The notes under the pieces were generated by a model. That model was given only the letters and a program-made list of their open reading frames with translations, had not been told where the DNA came from and did not search any database. The position numbers and the translations under genes are program-made. Below are positions 1-25,887 of a stretch of 25,896 nucleotides of DNA, one piece after another (the stretch's first letter is position 1; each line of letters opens with the position of its first letter). This DNA is from a virus, in IMG/VR virus record IMGVR_UViG_3300017748_000118, positions 1 through 25,896 of that record. One strand, given 5' to 3'.

Positions 1-396
1 ATTTGTATTTACGCTATATGCGTGTGATGCTAAATAATTTCCAACTCTTGTTCCACTTGAGTTTGAAAAGAATATATTAGTAGCACCTCCTGCAAAACCA
101 CCAGTGTTTGCTACAGAAATAGTAGATAAGATGCTAGAGTTTGTTGCTACTGTATCACCAGAAGCAAGCGTTGTTGGAAGTGCAACTGTTGTTATTGTAT
201 TATATGAGCCATTTTCACCTAAAGAACCGCCACCTGATGAAGCACTCTTTGTTATTGTACCACCAGAGTTGCTTGTAGATGTAGAAGGCACTTCACTGCC
301 ACCCCTGTACAAATCGCTCATTGATATTGCACCAGATATACCAAATTCAGTTCGCATATCATCCATGCTTATTGCACCACTACTTTGAAGAGTCAT
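1..396 (-). CDS. Phage tail protein, 5' part only (runs off window)
   Basis: This frame is open from an ATG at 396 to the left edge of the window, so only the first 132 residues are visible. It opens MTLQSSGAISMDDMRTEFG, a start typical of small phage tail or fiber proteins (remembered resemblance: thr/leu-gln-ser-ser-gly-ala-ile-ser). The rest is Gly/Ser/Thr rich, with beta-structured low-complexity text as in fiber shafts. It overlaps the end of the S74 fiber gene by 17 bases, which supports translational coupling within the tail operon. I see no clear Shine-Dalgarno site. The function is probably a virion or fiber component; the C-terminal domain that would define it lies outside the window. 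Confidence 0.75.
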   Translation of the reverse strand, partial: MTLQSSGAISMDDMRTEFGISGAISMSDLYRGGSEVPSTSTSNSGGTITKSASSGGGSLGENGSYNTITTVALPTTLASGDTVATNSSILSTISVANTGGFAGGATNIFFSNSSGTRVGNYLASHAYSVNTN

Positions 397-1123
397 AACA
401 ATCACAACTTTGTTTTAATATTTCTACTTCTTTTTTTAGATCTTTAATTGCTTCAATAAGAACGCCAACTAAATTTCCATAAGCAACTGATTTATATTCA
501 CCATCCTCTACAACTTCTGGTATTACTTTTTCTACTTCCTGCGCAATAACTCCCATGCCTTTTTCTGCACTTTTTGTATAAGTAACACCTCTTAAATTCA
601 TTACTTTATCTAAAGCATTTTCTATTGTTTCTACGTCTGTTTTTAATCTTTCATCTGAAAAAGCTGTAATATTACCAGAAGCAGTTATGGTTGTAGAAGC
701 AGTTATTGCACCAGTAACAGCAAGAGTAGATCCATTATAAGTTAAATTAGCTTCAGCTTCTAATGTATCAGCAGTGCCACTGCCTGTTATAATTCTATTA
801 TCAGCATTATTGTTAATAGTTGTTAAAGTAACTGTTCCAAAAGATAATGCGCCAGATCCATCTGTTTTTATAAATTGATTAGGACTGCCATCAGACGTTG
901 GATAAGTTAAACCGCCAATTGTTGCATTCGTTATTGTTGCACCTGTCATAACTGGTGATGTTAAGGTGCTTGCTCCAGTATCCATATTTTTTAACAATGC
1001 ACCTAACGCCCTAAGAGCATTATTAATATTTGATGGCGCAGTACCTTCACCTATATCAACACCATTGATATCTGTATTAGATCCTGCGGTAGCTGAAAAA
1101 CCTGCTATTGTTGAAATTGTCAT
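380..1123 (-). CDS. Tail fiber with C-terminal S74 intramolecular chaperone
   Basis: 247 residues. The first ~155 are Thr/Ala/Asn/Ser-rich beta-type repeats typical of a trimeric fiber. From residue 156 to the end the protein matches the endosialidase-type (peptidase S74) intramolecular chaperone: SDERLKTDVETIENALDKV, then GVIAQEVEKVIPEVV, then SVAYGNLVGVLIEAIKDL followed by a coiled coil. In this family the C-terminal domain guides trimer folding and cleaves itself off at the serine before the Asp in the SDERLK region; Ser156-Asp157 is the expected site. A good Shine-Dalgarno (AAGGAG, 8 bases from the ATG) fixes the start. Likely a receptor-binding or side fiber; the shaft is short and carries no recognisable enzyme domain. 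Confidence 0.88.
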   Translation of the reverse strand: MTISTIAGFSATAGSNTDINGVDIGEGTAPSNINNALRALGALLKNMDTGASTLTSPVMTGATITNATIGGLTYPTSDGSPNQFIKTDGSGALSFGTVTLTTINNNADNRIITGSGTADTLEAEANLTYNGSTLAVTGAITASTTITASGNITAFSDERLKTDVETIENALDKVMNLRGVTYTKSAEKGMGVIAQEVEKVIPEVVEDGEYKSVAYGNLVGVLIEAIKDLKKEVEILKQSCDCYDSSK

Positions 1124-13729: not shown

Positions 13730-14361
13730 CTACGATGTAGATAGATCAAAAACAGCACCATGTGCTTTAGGTGCTTTGATAATCAAACACCACTCAGAAA
13801 GAATTGCAAATTTAGTCGCATCGCCTGTTGGAGCAATGTCTACAGTTTGCATCATACGATTCGGAAGATGTCCGATTGAGTAATAATCAGAATCAACTAA
13901 GAAAATTTCAGAGTTGTTTGCTGATCTATCAACAACGGCTGATAATTCACCAAAGTCTGTGAGGTATATAGAAGCTGAACCTATAATGCTCATTTCTTTA
14001 GCTGAAGTCATATGCAATTCATTGGATACGACTGAGCCAGAAGAAAGATCACTAAAAGCGACTTTATTACTTGGACTTAGAACAAGCATATCTGGCTTGC
14101 CACCATCATCAAATGCTGACTTCATAGCATTGTCGATAAGTGCTAAAGATAACGCTCTATCATTACCAGATAAAGTAGCTGTATCAGAACCATCACCAGT
14201 AGCAACTGCTGAAGTTGTTCCTGCTGTTGAAAAATCAGCGTTAGTAATCCAAGTGATTAAACTTGCTGTCTTTCTAGGATCTGAAGCAGATCTTGCAGTG
14301 TTAGAATAAAGATACTTATTTATATCTCTACGCTGTTCAAGTCCTTTTATTACTTTCACAT
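13730..14361 (-). CDS. Major capsid protein, exon 2 (C-terminal two thirds)
   Basis: Second exon of an intron-split gene. Joined after the predicted splice (exon 1 ends ...GAA ACT GCG T; exon 2 begins AT GTG AAA), it continues as ETAYVKVIKGLEQRRDINKY in one frame, giving 954 bases, 317 residues plus stop. The sequence SNTARSASDPRKTASLITWI and the terminal domain (LVLSPSNKVAFSDL, SIYLTDFGELSAVVDR, NSEIFLVDSDYYSIGHL, GDATKFAILSEWCLI) match the SU10-like DUF5309 capsid family with the HK97 fold. Alone, the frame could be mistaken for a 209-residue gene starting at a GTG (14359), but that start has no ribosome site and lacks the N-arm of the fold. Confidence 0.9.
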
Positions 14362-14609
14362 CATTTGTATTCGCCTTAGTTCGCTAAACTAAAACCGATC
14401 TTACGATCTGCTATATATTACTATATAGATTAGACTATATCACATCCGCTAATTGCGGATTGGTGCGCTTCCACTAGGCTTCTAGTGTACTCCTTTCGGA
14501 TAGTCGTTGCTCCTTCCTTTTTCAAGGCTTGGATCAGGATTATCCCCAACATCATTTGGTAGGACTTCCCCTGAGTTCACACCATTTATACTGCGCTAGT
14601 GTAAAGTTA
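14362..14609 (-). ncRNA. Group I intron (IA-like, ORF-less, 248 nt) in the major capsid gene
   Basis: A full group I core can be paired by hand on the minus strand. P1: exon ACUGCGU (14616-14610) with guide GCGCAGU (14596-14590), giving the required U-G pair at the 5' splice site. P3: UGGUGUG (14584-14578) with CGCACCA (14467-14461). P4: UCAGG/CCUGA. P5: CC..CCAA/UUGGGG. P6a: CCUU-GAAA-AAGG. P7: GACUAU (14505-14500) with AUAGUC (14438-14433). P7.1 (CC-GAAA-GG) and P7.2 (CACUAG/CUAGUG) lie between P7 and P3', as in IA introns. P8: AUCCGC/GCGGAU. P9: CUAUAUA-GUAA-UAUAUAG, followed by P9.1 and P9.2. Terminal omega-G is 14362. CGACTATCC and GATATAGTCT also occur in the phage T4 td intron. No homing endonuclease is encoded. 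Confidence 0.95.
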
Positions 14610-14931
14610 ACGCAGTTTCTTTATCTCTACCTGCTTTGTCCACCACATCGAGTGTACCAGAAATTGATCCTGCATTAGCAGAAATCTGGCAGTAATTGCC
14701 AAGTCTGGTTGTTGCAGTTGGGTTAACATAACTGTAATCAGCACCTTCATTCTGGTAGTTCGTTGCACTAGCACTTGCTAATTCTTGAACTTGCCATTCA
14801 TGGAATACGCCTTTTACGACTTCCTTTTTTGCATTTGAAAAAAGAGGTGTTTCTGATGGATCAATTTTTGAAATAATATTTGAAAGATCCTCACGCTCAC
14901 CGATAGCGTTTGCGGTCTTGTAAGTTGCCAT
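14610..14931 (-). CDS. Major capsid protein, exon 1 (N-terminal third)
   Basis: First exon, 107 full codons plus one base. The start has a strong Shine-Dalgarno (AAGGAG, 10 bases before the ATG). MATYKTANAIGEREDLSNII, the ETPLFSNAKKE segment, TATTRLGNYCQISA and GTLDVVDKAGRDKE match the N-terminal half of the SU10-like DUF5309 capsid family; VDKAGR is followed in relatives (from memory) by a helix with the spacing E-x2-Y-x7-E-x2-RD. Splicing restores that spacing exactly. Without splicing, translation would run four residues into the intron (TLH after Leu) and stop at a TAG, giving a 111-residue useless fragment. Expression of capsid, the most abundant virion protein, therefore depends on self-splicing. 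Confidence 0.92.
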
Positions 14932-19347: not shown

Positions 19348-19390
19348 TTGTTTTATGTGTATTTAAATATTATATTAACTATAAGTTAAT
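19348..19390 (+). promoter_or_regulatory. Rightward promoter with operator copy 1
   Basis: TTGTTT (19348-19353), a 17-base spacer and TATATT (19371-19376) form a plausible sigma-70 promoter with a weak -35. Overlapping the -10 and the likely start site is the inverted repeat ATTAACT-ATA-AGTTAAT (19374-19390), with perfect 7-base arms. The repeat recurs at 22601, 25815 and 25871. The gene's AGAGAGGG Shine-Dalgarno follows directly. Likely a repressor-controlled promoter for the two rightward genes. Confidence 0.6.
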
Positions 19391-19406: not shown

Positions 19407-20081
19407 ATGACTGCTTTAGAAACAAACCAAGAATTTCCATTTTTTGTAGATGTAGGTAATCAAGGTAAATTGTATACTTTGCGTGCTGTATGTCCATCAT
19501 CCAGATACTGGTCTGATAGATCTACATTTTCTACTCATGTTGTGTCATTATCTAGTAATTATGACACTGCTATTAAAAAAGCTAAACAATATGCTAATGA
19601 TCATAATGTAGCACTTGAAGTTCCAGAAACTCTTCCAAAAACTTTAATAAAAATTACTCAGCGTTCATCAGAAGAAGTCGCTAAAGAAAAAGCTATTATT
19701 GCGCACCAAAACTTTATGTTGACCGAACTTGCTTCACTTAGAAGAATTAGAAGCAATGTAAAAAATGGCTTTTATAATATCAATAAATTAAAAACAAAAT
19801 ATACATCTAGCCATGTAGGTCAAATTGATGATCGTATCGACTTTGACTGCACTTTAGAATTTACTCACAGCTTTGTATCGTATTATGGTGTTAGCTTTCT
19901 TAACAGCATGAAAGATGCCAACGGCAATGTCATCACCTACTTTGGTAGCCGTTCATTAGGCGAGAAAGGTGACAAAATTACTTTTAGTGCTAAAATCAAA
20001 AAGCATGATGAATACAAAGGCATTAAACAAACTATTATCCAAAGACCAACTAAAATCAAAAACCATACAAGGGAGTGGTAA
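19407..20081 (+). CDS. Opposite-strand accessory gene with OB-like C-terminal module
   Basis: 224 residues from ATG 19407, chosen for AGAGAGGG just upstream; an earlier in-frame start at 19275 would run through the promoter and operator. The N-terminal part (FPFFVDVGNQGKLYTLRAVC) and middle (helical, Lys-rich) are not recognised. The C-terminal ~50 residues have the pattern G-N-V-I-T-Y-F-G-S...GDKITFSAKIKKHDEYKGIK-QTIIQRPTKIK, which I recall as a recurrent module of phage proteins of unknown function and which looks like a small beta-barrel (OB-type). Nucleic-acid binding is a guess. The gene lies antisense between terL and portal, with its own promoter and operator, the layout of a moron or lysogeny gene. 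Confidence 0.78.
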   Translation: MTALETNQEFPFFVDVGNQGKLYTLRAVCPSSRYWSDRSTFSTHVVSLSSNYDTAIKKAKQYANDHNVALEVPETLPKTLIKITQRSSEEVAKEKAIIAHQNFMLTELASLRRIRSNVKNGFYNINKLKTKYTSSHVGQIDDRIDFDCTLEFTHSFVSYYGVSFLNSMKDANGNVITYFGSRSLGEKGDKITFSAKIKKHDEYKGIKQTIIQRPTKIKNHTREW

Positions 20082-20082
20082 A

Positions 20083-20415
20083 ATGAGATTAACAAAAAAC
20101 GAAAAAACAATAATTAGTGTTTGCAGAAGTTTAACAATATCAGCGCATGGCGTTGACATTGACGAAAGTTTAGGCGGTTGGTTTTTCCAAGATATCTGGG
20201 ATGCCTGCACAAACCAATTTAGTGAAGAACAACTCAAAGGCGTAATTGGTAGCTTAGTAAAGAAAAAAATTCTTGAAATAGACTACCCAGATGAACATAG
20301 AGTTTCAGCAGGTTCTGCCACAACCGAATATTACTTTAACAATCTATGTGAATGGTATGATGAAACTTGCAAGAAGATAGATGAAGAATATAAAAAACAA
20401 CTATCTACAGCTTAA
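20083..20415 (+). CDS. Second gene of rightward cassette, winged-helix-like small protein
   Basis: 110 residues from ATG 20083; GGGAG overlaps the last codons of the upstream gene, and only one base separates stop and start, so the two are co-translated. MRLTKNEKTIISVCRSLTIS is followed by FFQDIWDACTNQFSEEQLKG and VIGSLVKKKILEIDYPDEHR, whose helix-helix-wing-like order resembles a winged helix. The C-terminal segment is helical (WYDETCKKIDEEYKKQ). It ends convergently with terL; the stop codons overlap by 4 bases. Function unknown; a regulatory or host-interaction role is possible. Confidence 0.75.
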   Translation: MRLTKNEKTIISVCRSLTISAHGVDIDESLGGWFFQDIWDACTNQFSEEQLKGVIGSLVKKKILEIDYPDEHRVSAGSATTEYYFNNLCEWYDETCKKIDEEYKKQLSTA

Positions 20416-21806
20416 ACAACCCAATTAAGGTCTGGGCGGATACTATTCCGCCTATTCCAACTTCCTAACTTCCCACTTCCAAAAGCACCATGCATAGCAA
20501 AAGTAAGCAGAAAAGCATCCGCGCAATCTGGTGACCTTAAACCGCGCTTTTTTAATTGATCTTTACCTTCGACTTTCAATTTGCCACTAGACAAATATTG
20601 ATACTTCACAGCCGTTAATTCTTTAATCAAAGTTGCATCATCTGGCATTTTGCAATCTTTAGCTTCAAAAAACTCCCTAGCCTTCCACCAGAGTTCATCT
20701 CTTAACCTGCTAAACTTCTGCCCAAGTGCAGGACTTTCAGCAACATTAATTCCTACCGCAGGCAGATCCAGTTCTATTAGTCTATCAACTAATCCTGCAC
20801 CTAAACCAATACTATCAATAAAAATTTGCGATGGCTTCTCAGGATATGGCGTTGCTTCATACTCACTTAATACAATGCCTGCCGTAGACATTAAATCCTT
20901 TCCCTGCCATGTTTTTACCTTTTCCAGTAAATAACCGCCCTGACGCTTCGCCAAAGCCGTTCTATCATCTCCATACCTTGCAGGATCAACGCCCCAAACA
21001 ACAGGCGCATATTCGTCACGCTCAACTTCTCTTTTAACTGCACTTTCAACCAAATCCAATCCAATAAGTGTATCATCGTCAGATGTACTAAATTCACCCA
21101 ATACGCGAATACGAAATACATTTGACTCTTCACCATACTTTTTTGCCATGTCCTGAATAAATTCATCACTGACATAATCTCCATCTCTTGATGAAACTGT
21201 TTGCAAATGCCAACTATCACGCATTGTGTGAAAGCATTCGTAAAAGAAGCCACTAGAGCGTGTAGGATTGCCTGCAAGCACTATCTTCGCGTTAGGAGTA
21301 GACAAACTCCCAGAAGCTGTCTCAAAAATAATATCTGGAATTCCTGAACTTTCATCGCAAACTGCTAACATATTCTGCGAGTGAAATCCTGCTAACGCTT
21401 CTGGATTTTCTCTACGGCTAACCCTGTAAGATAAAAAACTATCTGGACTGCCTTTTAAAGCCACCCTGTCCTGTTTAAACTCTAACTGATCTAGAAAGCC
21501 TTTAGGTAGCTGTTTAGACCATTTCTGTACATCGTTAGCCAATACATCGTGAAGCTGTGATGCGGTGTTTGCAGTGGCTACAATCTTTGCAGGAATGCGT
21601 GTTAATAAAAACCATAAACACAGCCAAGAAAGATATGTAGATTTGCCTACACCATGTCCAGACTTGATCGCAACCTTATTGCTTTTAACAACAGCGGTTA
21701 ATGCTTCTATTTGCCATTTCTGGGGTTCTGCTTTTAATACAGTGCGCACAAATAATACTGGATCATTGTGCAGTTTTTTTAGAATTTTTTTAAAATCATC
21801 TGACAT
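20412..21806 (-). CDS. terL: Terminase large subunit
   Basis: 464 residues. The ATPase domain shows Walker A SGHGVGKST (49-57), a following Q/N-rich motif (NTASQLHDVL) and Walker B MLAVCDE (146-152); the coupling motif LAGNPT (178-183) is present. The nuclease domain has the three acidic positions of the RNase-H-like fold: D274 in WGVDPARYGDD, D331 in IFIDSIGLGAG and D430 in SPDCADAF. The enzyme pumps DNA into the procapsid through the portal and cuts the concatemer. The start (ATG 21806) lacks a clear Shine-Dalgarno; the long untranslated leader with C tracts is unusual. Confidence is high because all catalytic motifs are in place. Confidence 0.95.
   Translation of the reverse strand: MSDDFKKILKKLHNDPVLFVRTVLKAEPQKWQIEALTAVVKSNKVAIKSGHGVGKSTYLSWLCLWFLLTRIPAKIVATANTASQLHDVLANDVQKWSKQLPKGFLDQLEFKQDRVALKGSPDSFLSYRVSRRENPEALAGFHSQNMLAVCDESSGIPDIIFETASGSLSTPNAKIVLAGNPTRSSGFFYECFHTMRDSWHLQTVSSRDGDYVSDEFIQDMAKKYGEESNVFRIRVLGEFSTSDDDTLIGLDLVESAVKREVERDEYAPVVWGVDPARYGDDRTALAKRQGGYLLEKVKTWQGKDLMSTAGIVLSEYEATPYPEKPSQIFIDSIGLGAGLVDRLIELDLPAVGINVAESPALGQKFSRLRDELWWKAREFFEAKDCKMPDDATLIKELTAVKYQYLSSGKLKVEGKDQLKKRGLRSPDCADAFLLTFAMHGAFGSGKLGSWNRRNSIRPDLNWVV
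20434..20452. other. Hairpin in the overlapping 3' ends of terL and rightward cassette
   Basis: GGCGGA (20435-20440), a 6-base loop and TCCGCC (20447-20452) form an inverted repeat just past the rightward cassette stop and within the terL C-terminus. There is no T tract on either strand, so an intrinsic terminator is doubtful. The 9-mer GGGCGGATA at its start also opens the post-capsid terminator (13698-13706). It may attenuate converging transcription. Confidence 0.35.
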
Positions 21807-21926: not shown

Positions 21927-21983
21927 TTACTTAGGCTTATTAGTTCTGGTCTTTTTCTTTTTCTTCTTATTGCTAGTGTACAT
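21927..21983 (-). CDS. Possible 18-residue Lys-rich peptide or frame-extension of terS
   Basis: An ATG at 21983, in the other frame over the last codons of terS, opens an 18-residue peptide MYTSNKKKKKKTRTNKPK. AGGCAAGA lies upstream. The run of AAG/AAA codons may reflect a real basic C-terminal tail, for example if terS once read through in this frame, since basic C-termini are common in small terminases. It could also be chance in a purine-rich stretch. Evidence is weak. Confidence 0.25.
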   Translation of the reverse strand: MYTSNKKKKKKTRTNKPK

Positions 21984-22437
21984 TCTTGCCTGCTTTCTGT
22001 TCATGCGCGCGTAGTGCGCCCACTTGTGATTTTTCTGCTTCCTGCTCTATTACTTCTTGGACTTCCCTCAACGCATCTACATAACTTGTTTCATGTTTGA
22101 CCTCCATGCGCTGTATATCTCCATACACTTTAGGTGCAAGCTTACTGCTCACCCATTTCAATCCATCAATAGCAACTCTTCCTGCATTAGCATCAAGCGT
22201 TCCATTAACAACCTGATCTATTATCTCACTGATCTTATCAGCATAGACCTGCCCTCTACTTTCCATCGCTAAAGAATAAGCACCTGCAAACTGGGTATTC
22301 TGATTCAACTCTCTTGATACCTGTGACCAACTGCACATATCTTTATCTTTACAAACAGATCTTGCGCTTCTTCCTTCACCTATTCTTTTGAGGAACTCAT
22401 TCTGCATTGCCTGCTGAAATGTTTTTGCTCTTGCCAT
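21973..22437 (-). CDS. terS: Terminase small subunit
   Basis: 154 residues from ATG 22437. Helical N-terminal domain with the family pattern: EFLKRIGEGRSARSVCKDKD, then MCSWSQVSRELNQNTQFAGA, an HTH that recognises the packaging site, YADKISEIIDQVVNG, then RVAIDGLKWVSSKLAPKVYGD, the classical small-terminase signature (DxxKWxxSKLxPKxYGD). It binds the phage genome and hands it to TerL. The start is 11 bases after the T tract of a strong terminator and has no good Shine-Dalgarno (only a weak GGA); an upstream TTG (22443) is less likely. First gene of the late operon. Confidence 0.9.
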   Translation of the reverse strand: MARAKTFQQAMQNEFLKRIGEGRSARSVCKDKDMCSWSQVSRELNQNTQFAGAYSLAMESRGQVYADKISEIIDQVVNGTLDANAGRVAIDGLKWVSSKLAPKVYGDIQRMEVKHETSYVDALREVQEVIEQEAEKSQVGALRAHEQKAGKNVH

Positions 22438-22448
22438 AATCAATCCAT

Positions 22449-22484
22449 AAAAAAAGGAGCAGAGAAAAGTTATAACTCTGCCCC
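22449..22484 (-). terminator. Intrinsic terminator immediately upstream of terS
   Basis: On the minus strand GGGGCAGAG (22484-22476) pairs with CUCUGCUCC (22464-22456) in a 9-bp stem (one G-U) around an 11-base loop, followed at once by U7 (22455-22449). This is a textbook intrinsic terminator placed between the early leftward genes and terS. All late genes lie beyond it, so it must be overridden or bypassed for late expression. Confidence 0.88.
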
Positions 22485-22525
22485 TAAAGTTTATCTTCTA
22501 GGAGGAATAAATATAAAAAATGCCT

Positions 22526-22531
22526 ATTATA
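22526..22531 (-). promoter_or_regulatory. Possible late-promoter -10 upstream of terminator
   Basis: A perfect TATAAT on the minus strand (22531-22526) lies in the gap between the early genes and terS. No good -35 is found 16-18 bases upstream (TATATC there). A transcript would begin near 22519 and reach the terminator after about 70 bases, like lambda's late promoter-terminator leader. Weak evidence on its own. Confidence 0.35.
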
Positions 22532-22593
22532 CTTATCTTAATAATTTAGATATACTACTGCGCGGACTTAGACAAGTAAAAAAAACTTCTATA

Positions 22594-22622
22594 TTGACAT
22601 ATTAACCTATAGTTAATATATA
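22594..22622 (+). promoter_or_regulatory. Strong rightward promoter with operator copy 2 in the spacer
   Basis: TTGACA (22594-22599), a 17-base spacer and TATATA (22617-22622) form a near-consensus sigma-70 promoter. The spacer is almost exactly filled by the inverted repeat ATTAACC-TAT-AGTTAAT (22601-22617), one mismatch from perfect arms. A protein bound there would block RNA polymerase directly. Gene start is at 22655 with AGAGGT upstream. This is the clearest promoter/operator in the window. Confidence 0.82.
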
Positions 22623-22654
22623 TTATTAGTATTTAAATGTTATTAGAGGTTATT

Positions 22655-22849
22655 ATGCTGACAAAAGAAACATCGAAGAAGTTATTATTAAAGCACATAT
22701 CAAAAGCAACTCCTGATCCATTAGACAGATCCATAGGCAGGATATATCATCGCACTGTATTCCAACGCATGAAATGGTGGGAAAGTCTTTTACTGCATTT
22801 CTTTACAAGCTGTATGATATTACTTTGCATCTACCTTCTGCTTGCGTAA
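22655..22849 (+). CDS. Small membrane protein, rightward, operator-controlled
   Basis: 64 residues from ATG 22655, chosen because AGAGGT lies 4 bases upstream; the ATG is preceded by the same leader layout (AGAGG-n-TATTATG) as the 19407 gene. The N-terminal 40 residues are basic (MLTKETSKKLLLKHISKATP, GRIYHRTVFQRMK); the last 24 (WWESLLLHFFTSCMILLCIY and LLLA) form one transmembrane helix, N-in by the positive-inside rule. It overlaps the end of the leftward DUF6456-like gene by 30 bases tail to tail. No family recognised. Position and regulation suggest a lysogeny or host-altering gene, for example superinfection exclusion. Confidence 0.7.
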   Translation: MLTKETSKKLLLKHISKATPDPLDRSIGRIYHRTVFQRMKWWESLLLHFFTSCMILLCIYLLLA

Positions 22850-23341
22850 CTCAGCTACTCTATTAAAAGCATTCTCTAATGCATCTAGGCAAAAGCGTAG
22901 TATATCAATAGCACTGCGCTTTGACCTGCCTACATTCTCTGCCCATTCAGTTGCCATCATATTGTAACAACAAACATTCTCAACAACTTTAAATATTTCT
23001 TTACCCATTTCTCTAGACAATATCTGTAAATCCCTTCTCGCGATTGCAGATCTGTCAGTGCCATTATCATCATGCCCAGAAGGCAGTAAGTCCCATTTCA
23101 TTGTTATGTTCTTCTCCAAGCCTGCTATGCGCCATAAAGTATAAAGCCTAAGACCAACTGCATATTGCTCTTTAGTAATGATACTATTCCTGATGTAATA
23201 ATCCAGAGCAGTACCATCAACAACTATTCTCTTTCTCTTTCCGCCCTTCCCAGTTCTTTCTTCAATAGTGTTATGTTGTGTCCGCTCATAAGTAGGAAGT
23301 ACATCTATGTCAGCCTGTTCCTGCTTCTTCTTCTTAGGCAT
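22820..23341 (-). CDS. DUF6456-like protein, candidate late-gene regulator (Q-like position)
   Basis: 173 residues from ATG 23341 (AGAGGA about 8 bases upstream; the ATG at 23347 is too near it and the longer frame runs into the upstream gene). A Lys-rich N-terminus (MPKKKKQEQ) precedes VDGTALDYYIRNSIITKEQY and a helical core; the C-terminal part EIFKVVENVCCYNMMATEW then VGRSKRSAIDILRFCLDALE resembles alphaproteobacterial DUF6456 domains (V-x-CF...W..RSAKxxLxxALxxL). The last segment looks like a helix-turn-helix. It is the last early gene before the late terminator, the slot of lambda Q or ArpU-type regulators. The antitermination role is inferred from position, not sequence. Confidence 0.62.
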   Translation of the reverse strand: MPKKKKQEQADIDVLPTYERTQHNTIEERTGKGGKRKRIVVDGTALDYYIRNSIITKEQYAVGLRLYTLWRIAGLEKNITMKWDLLPSGHDDNGTDRSAIARRDLQILSREMGKEIFKVVENVCCYNMMATEWAENVGRSKRSAIDILRFCLDALENAFNRVAELRKQKVDAK

Positions 23342-24161
23342 TGTCATATTCCTCTTGAATAATCTTCCCTTCTGCCAACAAACTACGCAATGCAAAATCA
23401 TGGTTGCGTTTTAATCTTCCTCTAAACCATTCATCTGATTCATTCCATTGCTTTAAAATAAAATCATCATCCTGCTTTATAGAAAATGGTATTACCTGTT
23501 CAGCTTGTGGTGGTTCATATGTCCAACCTTCTTGATTAAGCCATGTCAGTACATTCTTAGCGTATCCATCCTTTACAGTCTGGTCTTGCTTATACAATCG
23601 CAAACCCTTCATCAAATCATCAAAAGATACACCGCCTTTTAAAACCTTTTTAAACTTTTCATAAATCTTTGTACCGCCAATCCATGTGCTTCTATTATTA
23701 GATCTTGGATATTCTAATTTAAATTCCTGAAACTCCTTTTCATATTCTTTTTCTTTTTTATATATTTTTTCTTTATATATATAACTTAGGTTATTATTAC
23801 TTATTATGCGACCGCTCTCGCGAACAATGGGAGTATCGGATGTTCGTGTTTGCGGACAATGGGGCTTTTCTGCCAGTTTTGTATCATATACAGTATATTC
23901 AGAACCGCGCTTTAATCCTTTAACAATGTTAGCCTTTCTGGTTACATAACCTGCATCAATCAGCTTCTTTAATATTGTATAAACCTTAGTCTTACCCCAT
24001 CCAAAACGCTTGCCCAGAAACTCAGCCTGTATCTTCCAATTACTAGGCTTGCCAATCAAATAAGTTAACATACCTAAACACTCACAGCTTAGATCTTTAT
24101 CTTCCATAATAGCGTTAGGAATAACAGTGTAATCAGTCGTATGTTTGGAGCGTTTAATCAT
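23334..24161 (-). CDS. O-like replication initiation protein with winged-helix N-terminus
   Basis: 275 residues. The N-terminal ~95 residues are a winged-helix DNA-binding domain of the phage replication/HTH type: HTTDYTVIPNAIMEDKDLSC, CLGMLTYLIGKPSNWKIQAE, LGKRFGWGKTKVYTILKKLI, GYVTRKANIVKGLKRGSEYT. A linker (PHCPQTRTSDTPIVRESGR) is encoded by the iteron-like DNA. The C-terminal half (FKLEYPRSNNRSTWIGGTKI, LRLYKQDQTVKDGYAKNVLT, WLNQEG) resembles the helicase-loader-binding part of phage replication proteins. ATGA overlap with the methyltransferase gene. Likely binds the origin within its own gene and recruits host helicase, as lambda O does. Confidence 0.75.
   Translation of the reverse strand: MIKRSKHTTDYTVIPNAIMEDKDLSCECLGMLTYLIGKPSNWKIQAEFLGKRFGWGKTKVYTILKKLIDAGYVTRKANIVKGLKRGSEYTVYDTKLAEKPHCPQTRTSDTPIVRESGRIISNNNLSYIYKEKIYKKEKEYEKEFQEFKLEYPRSNNRSTWIGGTKIYEKFKKVLKGGVSFDDLMKGLRLYKQDQTVKDGYAKNVLTWLNQEGWTYEPPQAEQVIPFSIKQDDDFILKQWNESDEWFRGRLKRNHDFALRSLLAEGKIIQEEYDNA
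23751..23864. other. Candidate replication origin: AT-rich tract plus iteron-like repeats
   Basis: Within the O-like gene, GCGAACAATGGGA (23820-23832) and GCGGACAATGGGG (23852-23864) are direct repeats 32 bases apart (about three helical turns), with a further inverted TGTTCG/CGGACA pair between them (23841-23856). They border a ~57-base almost pure A/T tract (23751-23807) that could melt easily. Iterons plus an AT-rich element inside the initiator gene is the layout of lambda ori. Only two clear iterons are seen, so this is moderate evidence. Confidence 0.5.
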
Positions 24162-25291: not shown

Positions 25292-25602
25292 TTTTGATTT
25301 GCTAGTAGTTCAAAAAAATCATCTAAATCAATCAGGATAAGTTCGGACTGCCTGTCAGCTTTAATAACAAGCGCATCGTTATCACCTTTCCACTTGTAAA
25401 GATTTTTAAAACCATCCGCCCTGCATTTTACTTCCATAACCCATTCATCAGCACCTTTTTTAGATGAAACAATTACGTCACCTTTAATGCTACCACCGCC
25501 ACTAAGCGGAATGCGTATTGCGTGTAATCCATGAATATCAGCTTTCTTTCTGATATTATTCTCAGTGCGGTAGCCTTTATCTCTACTGAACTTTCCCATC
25601 AT
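25288..25602 (-). CDS. Holliday-junction-resolvase-like PD-(D/E)XK nuclease
   Basis: 104 residues. The order matches archaeal Hjc-type resolvases: SRDKGYRTENNIRKKADIHG (E14 in the first helix), AIRIPLSGGGSIKGDVIV (G41-D42), and EWVMEVKCRADGF (E57-V-K59). The length fits this small family. In phage genomes such proteins replace RuvC or RusA and resolve branched DNA before packaging. It overlaps the upstream Cro-like gene by 20 bases; ATG 25602 or 25599 could serve as the start. Two nucleases of the same superfamily are adjacent here, with different sequence motifs. Confidence 0.72.
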   Translation of the reverse strand: MMGKFSRDKGYRTENNIRKKADIHGLHAIRIPLSGGGSIKGDVIVSSKKGADEWVMEVKCRADGFKNLYKWKGDNDALVIKADRQSELILIDLDDFFELLANQK

Positions 25603-25795
25603 ACCAATCCACTGCTTGCACTTTGTGATTTGTAAGCCTTTGAATAATTGCTATCTTGTCACCTCTGGGATAACCTAAACCGCTATACCATTTCCAGAAT
25701 GCAACATCAGAAACTACTATTCCTTTTTCAGCCAACATCTCTTTAAAAAAGTCTTTTGTGATCTGTTCTTCTTCTAAATATTCTTTTAATTTCAT
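25583..25795 (-). CDS. Cro-like helix-turn-helix repressor
   Basis: 70 residues. KDFFKEMLAEKGIVVSDVAF followed by WKWYSGLGYPRGDKIAIIQR and LTNHKVQAVDWYDG is the Cro/YdaS-type pattern (HTH with AVxKW...G..Pr...i..i...TnghVtp.D). ATG 25795 has AGAGGT 5 bases upstream. Two operator-like inverted repeats lie just upstream (25815-25831 and 25871-25887), with a -35 pair for divergent promoters between them, so self-regulation is likely. It is the first gene of the leftward early operon, the place of lambda cro. It is the best candidate in this window for the protein that binds the ATTAACT-N3-AGTTAAT sites; a repressor just outside would be the other. Confidence 0.75.
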   Translation of the reverse strand: MKLKEYLEEEQITKDFFKEMLAEKGIVVSDVAFWKWYSGLGYPRGDKIAIIQRLTNHKVQAVDWYDGKVQ

Positions 25796-25870: not shown

Positions 25871-25887
25871 ATTAACTTATAGTTAAA
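25871..25887. promoter_or_regulatory. Operator copy 3 near the right edge
   Basis: ATTAACT-TAT-AGTTAAA, one arm mismatch. Read on the minus strand the core (TTAACTATAAGTTAA) equals the 15-base core of copy 1 at 19375-19389 exactly. It lies just downstream of the rightward -10 (TATGCT), where it would cover the transcript start. Confidence 0.7.

Follow-up and report, generated by a model that had tools for sequence, protein, structure and literature searches.

A DUF6456 protein and a terminator ahead of terS form a candidate GafZ-type, Q-like late switch in an uncultured phage

The window, i.e. the whole stretch of 25,896 b that was analysed, is one IMG/VR virus record and probably comes from an uncultured temperate phage, whose host is likely an alphaproteobacterium, judged from the range of the DUF6456 family. 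Its late genes run leftward and comprise a terS, a terL and an SU10-type portal gene (PF23899, E 1.7e-211), then others. The early operon encodes, in this order, a Cro-like ORF, a RusA/PDDEXK-type resolvase, a 164-aa ORF, a DNA methyltransferase, an O-like replication protein and a DUF6456 protein (Table 1). The same early gene order is present in the related locus L004, and L003 differs by the absence of the methyltransferase; these two loci reach beyond cro, where a divergent HTH-S24-like repressor gene was recognised by eye. Given the order Cro-like, O-like, DUF6456 in the window and its relatives, the DUF6456 gene stands where Q would be in an early operon of lambda type. Indeed, as with the antiterminator genes of Q-type systems, it ends the early operon in the window and in L004. 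Neither Rfam families nor tRNAs were found in the window. Elsewhere, two neighbouring minus-strand ORFs (13730-14931) resemble, by eye, the halves of a single major capsid gene, so that a frameshift, real or sequencing-derived, is possible, and a tail protein (380-1123, minus strand) has a C-terminus resembling what is presumably an S74-type intramolecular chaperone.

Table 1. Position and supporting evidence of the features of the switch region and its surroundings in the window.
Feature	Position	Strand	Evidence
terL	20412..21806	-	phrog_2, E 1.4e-48
terS, first late gene; Sf6-type	21973..22437	-	PF20901, E 5.8e-24; phrog_1482
Intrinsic terminator (gate): hairpin 22485-22455 and U7 22455-22449	22449..22485	-	sequence, leader survey, compensatory changes
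TAAGAT, second -10-like element 6 b past the -10 (where pR' has its sigma-dependent pause element)	22535..22540	-	TATCAT in L003 and TAGAAT in L004, at equal spacing
Candidate late promoter: TTGTCT (22575-22570) as -35, TATCTA (22552-22547) as -10, and between them a 17-b spacer (22569-22553) with a conserved GCGC-type element at the place of ZBE/QBE	22547..22575	-	conserved block in relatives
Divergent promoter of small ORF, TTGACA-N17-TATATA	22594..22622	+	read from sequence
Operator-like palindrome TTAAC-N5-GTTAA, in divergent promoter spacer, 26 b from late -35	22602..22616		exact copy
Small membrane-like ORF, 64-70 aa, between DUF gene and terS	22637..22849	+	kept in L002-L004
DUF6456 (GafZ/GafA-C-like) protein, 173 aa; proposed late antiterminator, Q position, end of early operon	22820..23341	-	PF20057, 46.4 bits (cut-off 26.3), E 5.5e-12; HMM; hhalign; terS linkage
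O-like replication protein; adjoins DUF6456 gene upstream	23334..24161	-	phrog_270, E 1.6e-23
Cro-like small protein, head of early operon	25583..25795	-	position; phrog_35, E 0.025; divergent HTH-S24-like gene in L003 and L004 (by eye)
Operator-like palindrome TTAAC-N5-GTTAA, upstream of cro-like gene	25872..25886		exact copy
Operator-like palindrome TTAAC-N5-GTTAA, before opposite-strand gene starting near 19407	19375..19389		exact copy

A terS scan of the viral_contigs set yielded 49 loci, and a DUF profile scan yielded 120 relatives, of which the best 80 were kept, near-identical contigs still included. Among the DUF-selected loci from these best 80 of 120, terS comes next on the same strand in 42/42 cases with at least 2.5 kb of downstream DNA, in 50/55 with at least 1.5 kb and in 58/72 with at least 500 b; the linkage in relatives on which the sequence-only reading had staked its case is therefore kept. 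The survey of leaders began with 99 loci whose terS start lies no closer than 110 b to the edge; removal of named duplicate contigs and of leaders more than 90% identical left 55, and the DUF gene is also present in 48 of these 55 non-redundant loci. The relatives were assigned to group A (window and L002-L004; DUF identity to the window 83-99%), group C (L019-L022, L076-L086, L094; 46-54%), groups B (L009-L017), D (L026-L035 in part), E (L034, L040, L041, L095-L107) and G (most of L119-L149), all at about 30-40%, and group F (L047, L049-L053; about 25%). The gene of group B was missed by the PF20057 profile search of the genomes and was revealed by tblastn. In groups A, B, C, F and G, most loci carry opposite-strand ORFs between the DUF gene and the terminator, over up to 2-3 kb in group C. 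The small ORF found there in the window overlaps the 3' end of the DUF gene, and those of groups B, C, F and G look unrelated to it, in the manner of a cargo slot. In L040, L034, L095, L102 and L115, the gap from the DUF gene to terS holds an ORF of 418-490 aa with a ParB-like start, judged by eye to be DNA methyltransferase-like.

The sequence-only reading had described the last early gene as DUF6456-like with an HTH-like end, and both points hold: the protein scores well above the PF20057 cut-off (Table 1), and its predicted C-terminus is of HTH type (see below). Of the members of sequence set A3, 14/21 match this family at E<=0.01. According to the available text of PMC9638019 and PMC11150451, DUF6456 corresponds to the C-terminal part of GafA and to its homologous counterpart in GafZ, and it is the annotation given to proteins that match RcGTA GafA (available text of PMC9638019 and PMC9765227; see also PMC9632790). 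GafZ/GafA loci were fetched by means of the published site. L185, L189 and L190 were left out of set A8, the latter two representing a broken gafZ, with stop codons and a frame change, in a single Caulobacter-type genome (G049). An HMM of the phage DUF proteins matches 12 GafZ/GafA ORFs in 14 loci (E 7e-11 to 3e-6), and a profile comparison by hhalign aligns the two families over 113 columns (Prob 94.9, E 4.4e-8). By these profile comparisons, the protein of the window is homologous to the GafZ and GafA of Caulobacter and Rhodobacterales over the DUF6456 domain. It aligns with the C-terminal part of GafA only and, at 173 aa, is devoid of the N-terminal and central omega-binding parts of GafA. 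The family had been taken as one not normally described as an antiterminator, a view that is superseded by the description of Caulobacter GafZ as a processive antiterminator (Tran and Le, 2024; PMC11150451), whose loading site in the GTA promoter falls between the -35 and the -10. Travel with RNA polymerase and Nus factors past terminators is a defining trait of GafZ-type action. In the portions available of the DUF6456 literature found, which concerns GTAs, nothing was encountered that describes a DUF6456 protein encoded next to terS as a late antiterminator of phages.

GafZ/GafA-C proteins work with GafY, either separate or fused, an arrangement not encountered here: tblastn with GafA-N and GafY-type queries gave no match at E<=1 in the window or the phage loci, the control being positive in cellular loci, although a diverged GafY could escape such a search. 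No Q protein family appeared among the Pfam, PHROGs and NCBIfam matches, and a PDB sequence search returned no relevant match. Four phage DUF proteins compared by tblastn with 50,697 named-phage records found no match, and a scan of the genome collection with set A4 returned 59 stretches, none of which was confirmed. With GafA and GafZ queries, the only matches in named phages were RDJL Phi 1/2, by the N-terminal part, and MW462191; the available text of Fogg 2019 (PMC6363796) mentions GafA in RDJL phages. MW462191 was rejected as a phage relative: this record, named 'Bacteriophage sp.' (L191, MW462191.1 69124-83546), resembles a contig of a bacterial chromosome, where gafYZ adjoins a sulfur acceptor gene.

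AlphaFold models of the DUF6456 protein built from 21 and 43 sequences (pLDDT 65.7 and 69.5) are confident over residues of about 43-77 and 94-172. Foldseek returned nothing at E<=0.001; its leading rows include KorA, sigma region 4 and Q21. VIA-align placed Q21 first with both models (6p18, Z 7.6, 110 residues, 5.0 A; 6p1c, Z 7.2, 105 residues, 4.3 A), at a Z range of 6.3-7.6 over both models that lies below the level that shows kinship; sigma region 4 structures reach Z 6.9, mostly over 60-85 residues, and are within 1 Z of Q21, which covers more of the chain. Lambda Q and AlpA were absent among the VIA-align matches listed, which has no bearing on kinship. The models thus give good support to a sigma-R4-like (HTH) C-terminal domain, and kinship with Q21 is a lead; for GafZ, Tran and Le noted no structural likeness to known antiterminators (PMC11150451).

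The DUF6456 protein could also act like GafA and simply activate a promoter by recruiting polymerase, which RcGTA GafA does via omega; the hairpin before terS would then do no more than end early or stray transcripts, or would be leaky. RcGTA GafA activates at a promoter 75-125 b before terS, a spacing similar to that of the window, and its C-terminal part binds DNA there (available text of PMC9638019); moreover, loss of GafZ also lowered, about 4-fold, a Caulobacter reporter without terGTA (PMC11150451). However, the available text of PMC9638019 assigns omega binding to the central region 87-226 of GafA and reports that GafA 221-382 alone did not bind omega, whereas the phage protein matches the C-terminal part only and the searches made found no sequence like GafY or GafA-N. 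In addition, all leftward RNA that enters terS must cross a terminator that selection has retained and that stands ahead of the first late gene even where 2-3 kb of opposite-strand genes part it from the DUF gene. Activation without antitermination is therefore unlikely, and antitermination by the DUF6456 protein is the preferred reading.

The terminator itself consists of the arms AGGGGCAGAG and CTCTGCTCCT on the minus strand, forming 10 pairs, one of them G-U, around an 11-nt loop; the first U of the U7 closes the stem, and 11 bases (22448-22438) separate the U7 from the terS ATG at 22437. The stem with U7 noticed from the letters is thus confirmed, with one pair more than the 9 bp first counted, and a promoter between the U-run and terS, which would have spoken against a gate, is excluded because 11 bases give no room for it. 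A standard terminator scan missed the hairpin because its loop exceeds the limit of 8 set in that scan. A hairpin stands at the same place in L003 (GGGGTAAAG/CTTTACCCC, one terminal pair broken) and in L004 (GGGGTTAGG/CCTAGCCCC), and 2, 3 and 2 two-sided compensatory stem changes separate the window, L003 and L004, the three nearest distinct sequences. These pairs were counted by script on registered stems, MAFFT having put the stems out of register. As judged from these changes, the gate varies in sequence while the hairpin is kept.

In the 55 non-redundant terS leaders, a test for a hairpin with a T-run finds a terminator at -45 to -5 in 29, mostly at -16 to -21, versus 10/152 other plus-strand and 4/112 minus-strand control ORFs, 2/43 terL, 0/11 portal and 0/47 DUF genes, and 53/1100 shuffled leaders. 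The terminator before terS is therefore beyond chance (Fisher 2e-12 for terS leaders against the plus-strand control ORFs), and stricter clustering of the leaders leaves it in 17/35. The other 26 of the 55 leaders have no terminator immediately ahead of terS; where genes are inserted ahead of terS, the hairpin precedes the first late-strand gene (hairpin at -597 and ORF at -580 in L133; -478/-461 in L140; -1253/-1234 in L096). A looser test, which accepts a terminator lying 5-35 b ahead of any forward ORF that begins between the DUF gene and terS, succeeds in 42/48 loci and in 5/48 on the opposite strand; its six misses are L032, L049, L051, L102, L115 and L131. A clear gate is absent from group D members and from L102 and L115. 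The match in the L090 leader falls within coding sequence and is probably false. The script listed 19 distinct 5' arms, including one wrongly chosen hairpin: the match counted for L075 is a different, overlapping hairpin, and the true one was seen in a separate inspection of the gap. The stems of the gate vary among groups and its position is constant.

A hairpin situated 11 b from a start codon could affect the ribosome site, and it might accordingly be an element of the terS 5' UTR acting on RNA stability, translation or processing, with the DUF protein acting elsewhere; in keeping with this, the whole leader folds only moderately better than shuffles (z -1.96). Such a role is very improbable, since a hairpin with an immediate T-run is how intrinsic terminators are built, since the element accompanies the first late gene rather than terS where genes are inserted, and since the window has no Rfam match.

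A conserved TTGNNN-N17-TANNNT block precedes the gate in most groups, namely TTGACT-AAGCGCGCGCAGTAGTT-TATCTA in group A, TTGACA-TAGGGGGATTTTGAATT-TAATGT in group B, TTGTTA-GCCGCGCGGGCTTACTG-TATCTT in group C, TTGCAC-ATAGGGGGGGTTTCTGA-TATGTT in group E and TTGCAC-TTAAGACCTTTGTTTGG-TACAAC in group G. Mean identity within the block is 0.78 (A), 0.66 (C), 0.81 (G) and 0.75 (B), against 0.57, 0.53, 0.54 and 0.52 in the rest of the leader, but conservation in the leader does not peak at the block alone, as 29/201, 34/121, 53/201 and 29/271 comparison windows in the four groups are equally good, and the divergent promoter is among the stretches that are as conserved. Between the -35 and the -10, the spacer holds a conserved GC-rich or G-rich element, a putative binding element. 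It is of GCGC type in the group C phages, as in Caulobacter, and several of these phages share TATCTT-GTGT with the Caulobacter-type loci, nine of which have GCGCCCGCTGGCGC-CG-TATCTT-TGTGT in common. A second -10-like hexamer occurs 5-6 b past the -10 in groups A, C and G, reading TATGAT in several group C and most group G members; it is not beyond shuffles for most single sequences, and group F has no clear one. According to the available text of PMC6606751, phage Q reportedly needs just two elements, a site between the -35 and the -10 and, within the region transcribed first, a sequence resembling a -10.

Scored singly against the consensus, the leaders are mostly no better than shuffles (commonly 14-63 per 100 shuffles reach the promoter score in groups A and G, and 25 to 100 in group B), and L010, L080, L086, L096 and L107 fit the block poorly. 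Since no leader reliably stands out in the consensus scan or in the shuffle scoring, the candidate late promoter is drawn from conservation alone. On this basis, the gate most likely belongs to the leader transcribed from a late promoter of its own at about 22575-22547 and, as in Q-type systems, the terminator would then be placed between the late promoter and the first late gene. That the gate mainly stops RNA of the early operon, or RNA from a promoter at TATAAT (22531-22526), as the sequence-only reading had it, is hardly credible: this hexamer is present and early RNA running past the DUF gene would meet the hairpin, but TATAAT is not conserved in L003 and L004, its -35 position reads TATATC, TTGTCT-N17-TATCTA is better conserved, and, because opposite-strand genes spanning 1-3 kb can intervene between the DUF gene and the promoter in relatives, the stopping of early-operon RNA is at most a side effect. 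The pR'-tR'-Q layout proposed in that reading is nevertheless well supported, both by conservation in relatives and by the known role of GafZ, once the gate is no longer assigned to TATAAT or to the early operon.

The palindrome TTAAC-N5-GTTAA occurs in exactly three exact copies in the window (Table 1), against a mean of 0.09 and a maximum of 1 in shuffles. In L074 and L075, two copies each are present at CI-cro, one of them mismatched, and one mismatched copy at the divergent promoter. Their placement suggests a CI-type operator set that would tie the small opposite-strand genes to induction; in the window, the three copies, each at a promoter, would probably link the early genes with two opposite-strand genes.

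Taken together, these observations make it quite probable that the late genes are governed by a GafZ-type, Q-like switch built on the DUF6456 protein and operating without GafY. In the prophage, a CI-type repressor would hold off the early operon, and upon induction the DUF6456 protein would be made from the last early gene. Polymerase would initiate about 110-140 b ahead of terS, at a promoter of sigma70 type, and pause on the second -10-like element; without the DUF6456 protein, it would stop at the hairpin and U7 just before terS and release a leader RNA of about 90 nt. The protein would bind the element between the -35 and the -10 via its sigma-R4-like C-terminal domain and load onto the paused polymerase, which could then pass the terminator and transcribe the packaging and virion genes. 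As no GafY was found and the -35 is nearer to consensus than that of the Caulobacter GTA, antitermination alone may do the gating in the phage.

Several known systems can be compared with this arrangement. The GafZ/GafYZ system of the Caulobacter crescentus GTA (PMC11150451) combines, as is proposed for the phage, a homologous DUF6456 protein, a late promoter with an element between the -35 and the -10, and a terminator that needs read-through, and its -10 and following bases (TATCTT, GTGT) are common with group C relatives. Unlike it, the phage has its own 173-aa protein in the early operon, no GafY-like sequence that could be found and a near-consensus -35; the terminator stands ahead of the first late gene in the phage and after it in the GTA, and control is apparently by a CI-type repressor in the former and by RogA in the latter. 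RcGTA GafA shares the homologous C-terminal domain, which binds the promoter before terS, whereas the mechanism given for it in the available text of PMC6363796 and PMC9638019 is activation and not antitermination, and the phage protein is without its N-terminal and omega-binding parts. AlpA of Pseudomonas aeruginosa resembles the proposed switch in that it uses a promoter binding element and bypasses a downstream terminator (available text of PMC9371919), but it is a host gene for programmed cell death and gave no match in the sequence searches made.

The lambdoid Q systems (lambda, 21) have in common with the window the order cro ... O ... Q ... late, a short leader with a terminator, a (here putative) site between the -35 and the -10 and a (here candidate) second -10-like element, and Q21 came first in the two structure comparisons. 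In contrast, the protein of the window has no sequence match to a Q family, and opposite-strand genes separate the Q-like gene from the late promoter in the phage. Furthermore, the late genes of the window begin with terS, whereas those of lambda start with the lysis genes.

In summary, the locus places in a phage context, and in many natural versions, a protein family that had so far been known from GTAs, and suggests a route from an ordinary phage Q switch to the late control of GTAs. Tentatively, and with more doubt than confidence, GafZ/GafA may be traced to a large lineage of phage late antiterminators that is still used by uncultured phages, in which the protein alone would gate the late genes at a terminator; the fold, and perhaps the origin, would be common with phage 21 Q, and the GafY and IHF control would have been added later, when a phage was tamed into a GTA. 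The short gates, with their matched proteins and sites, would make the specificity and the mechanism of GafZ-type proteins testable in one reporter, and a functional label can be offered for viral proteins now called unknown (phrog_31762, phrog_21451).
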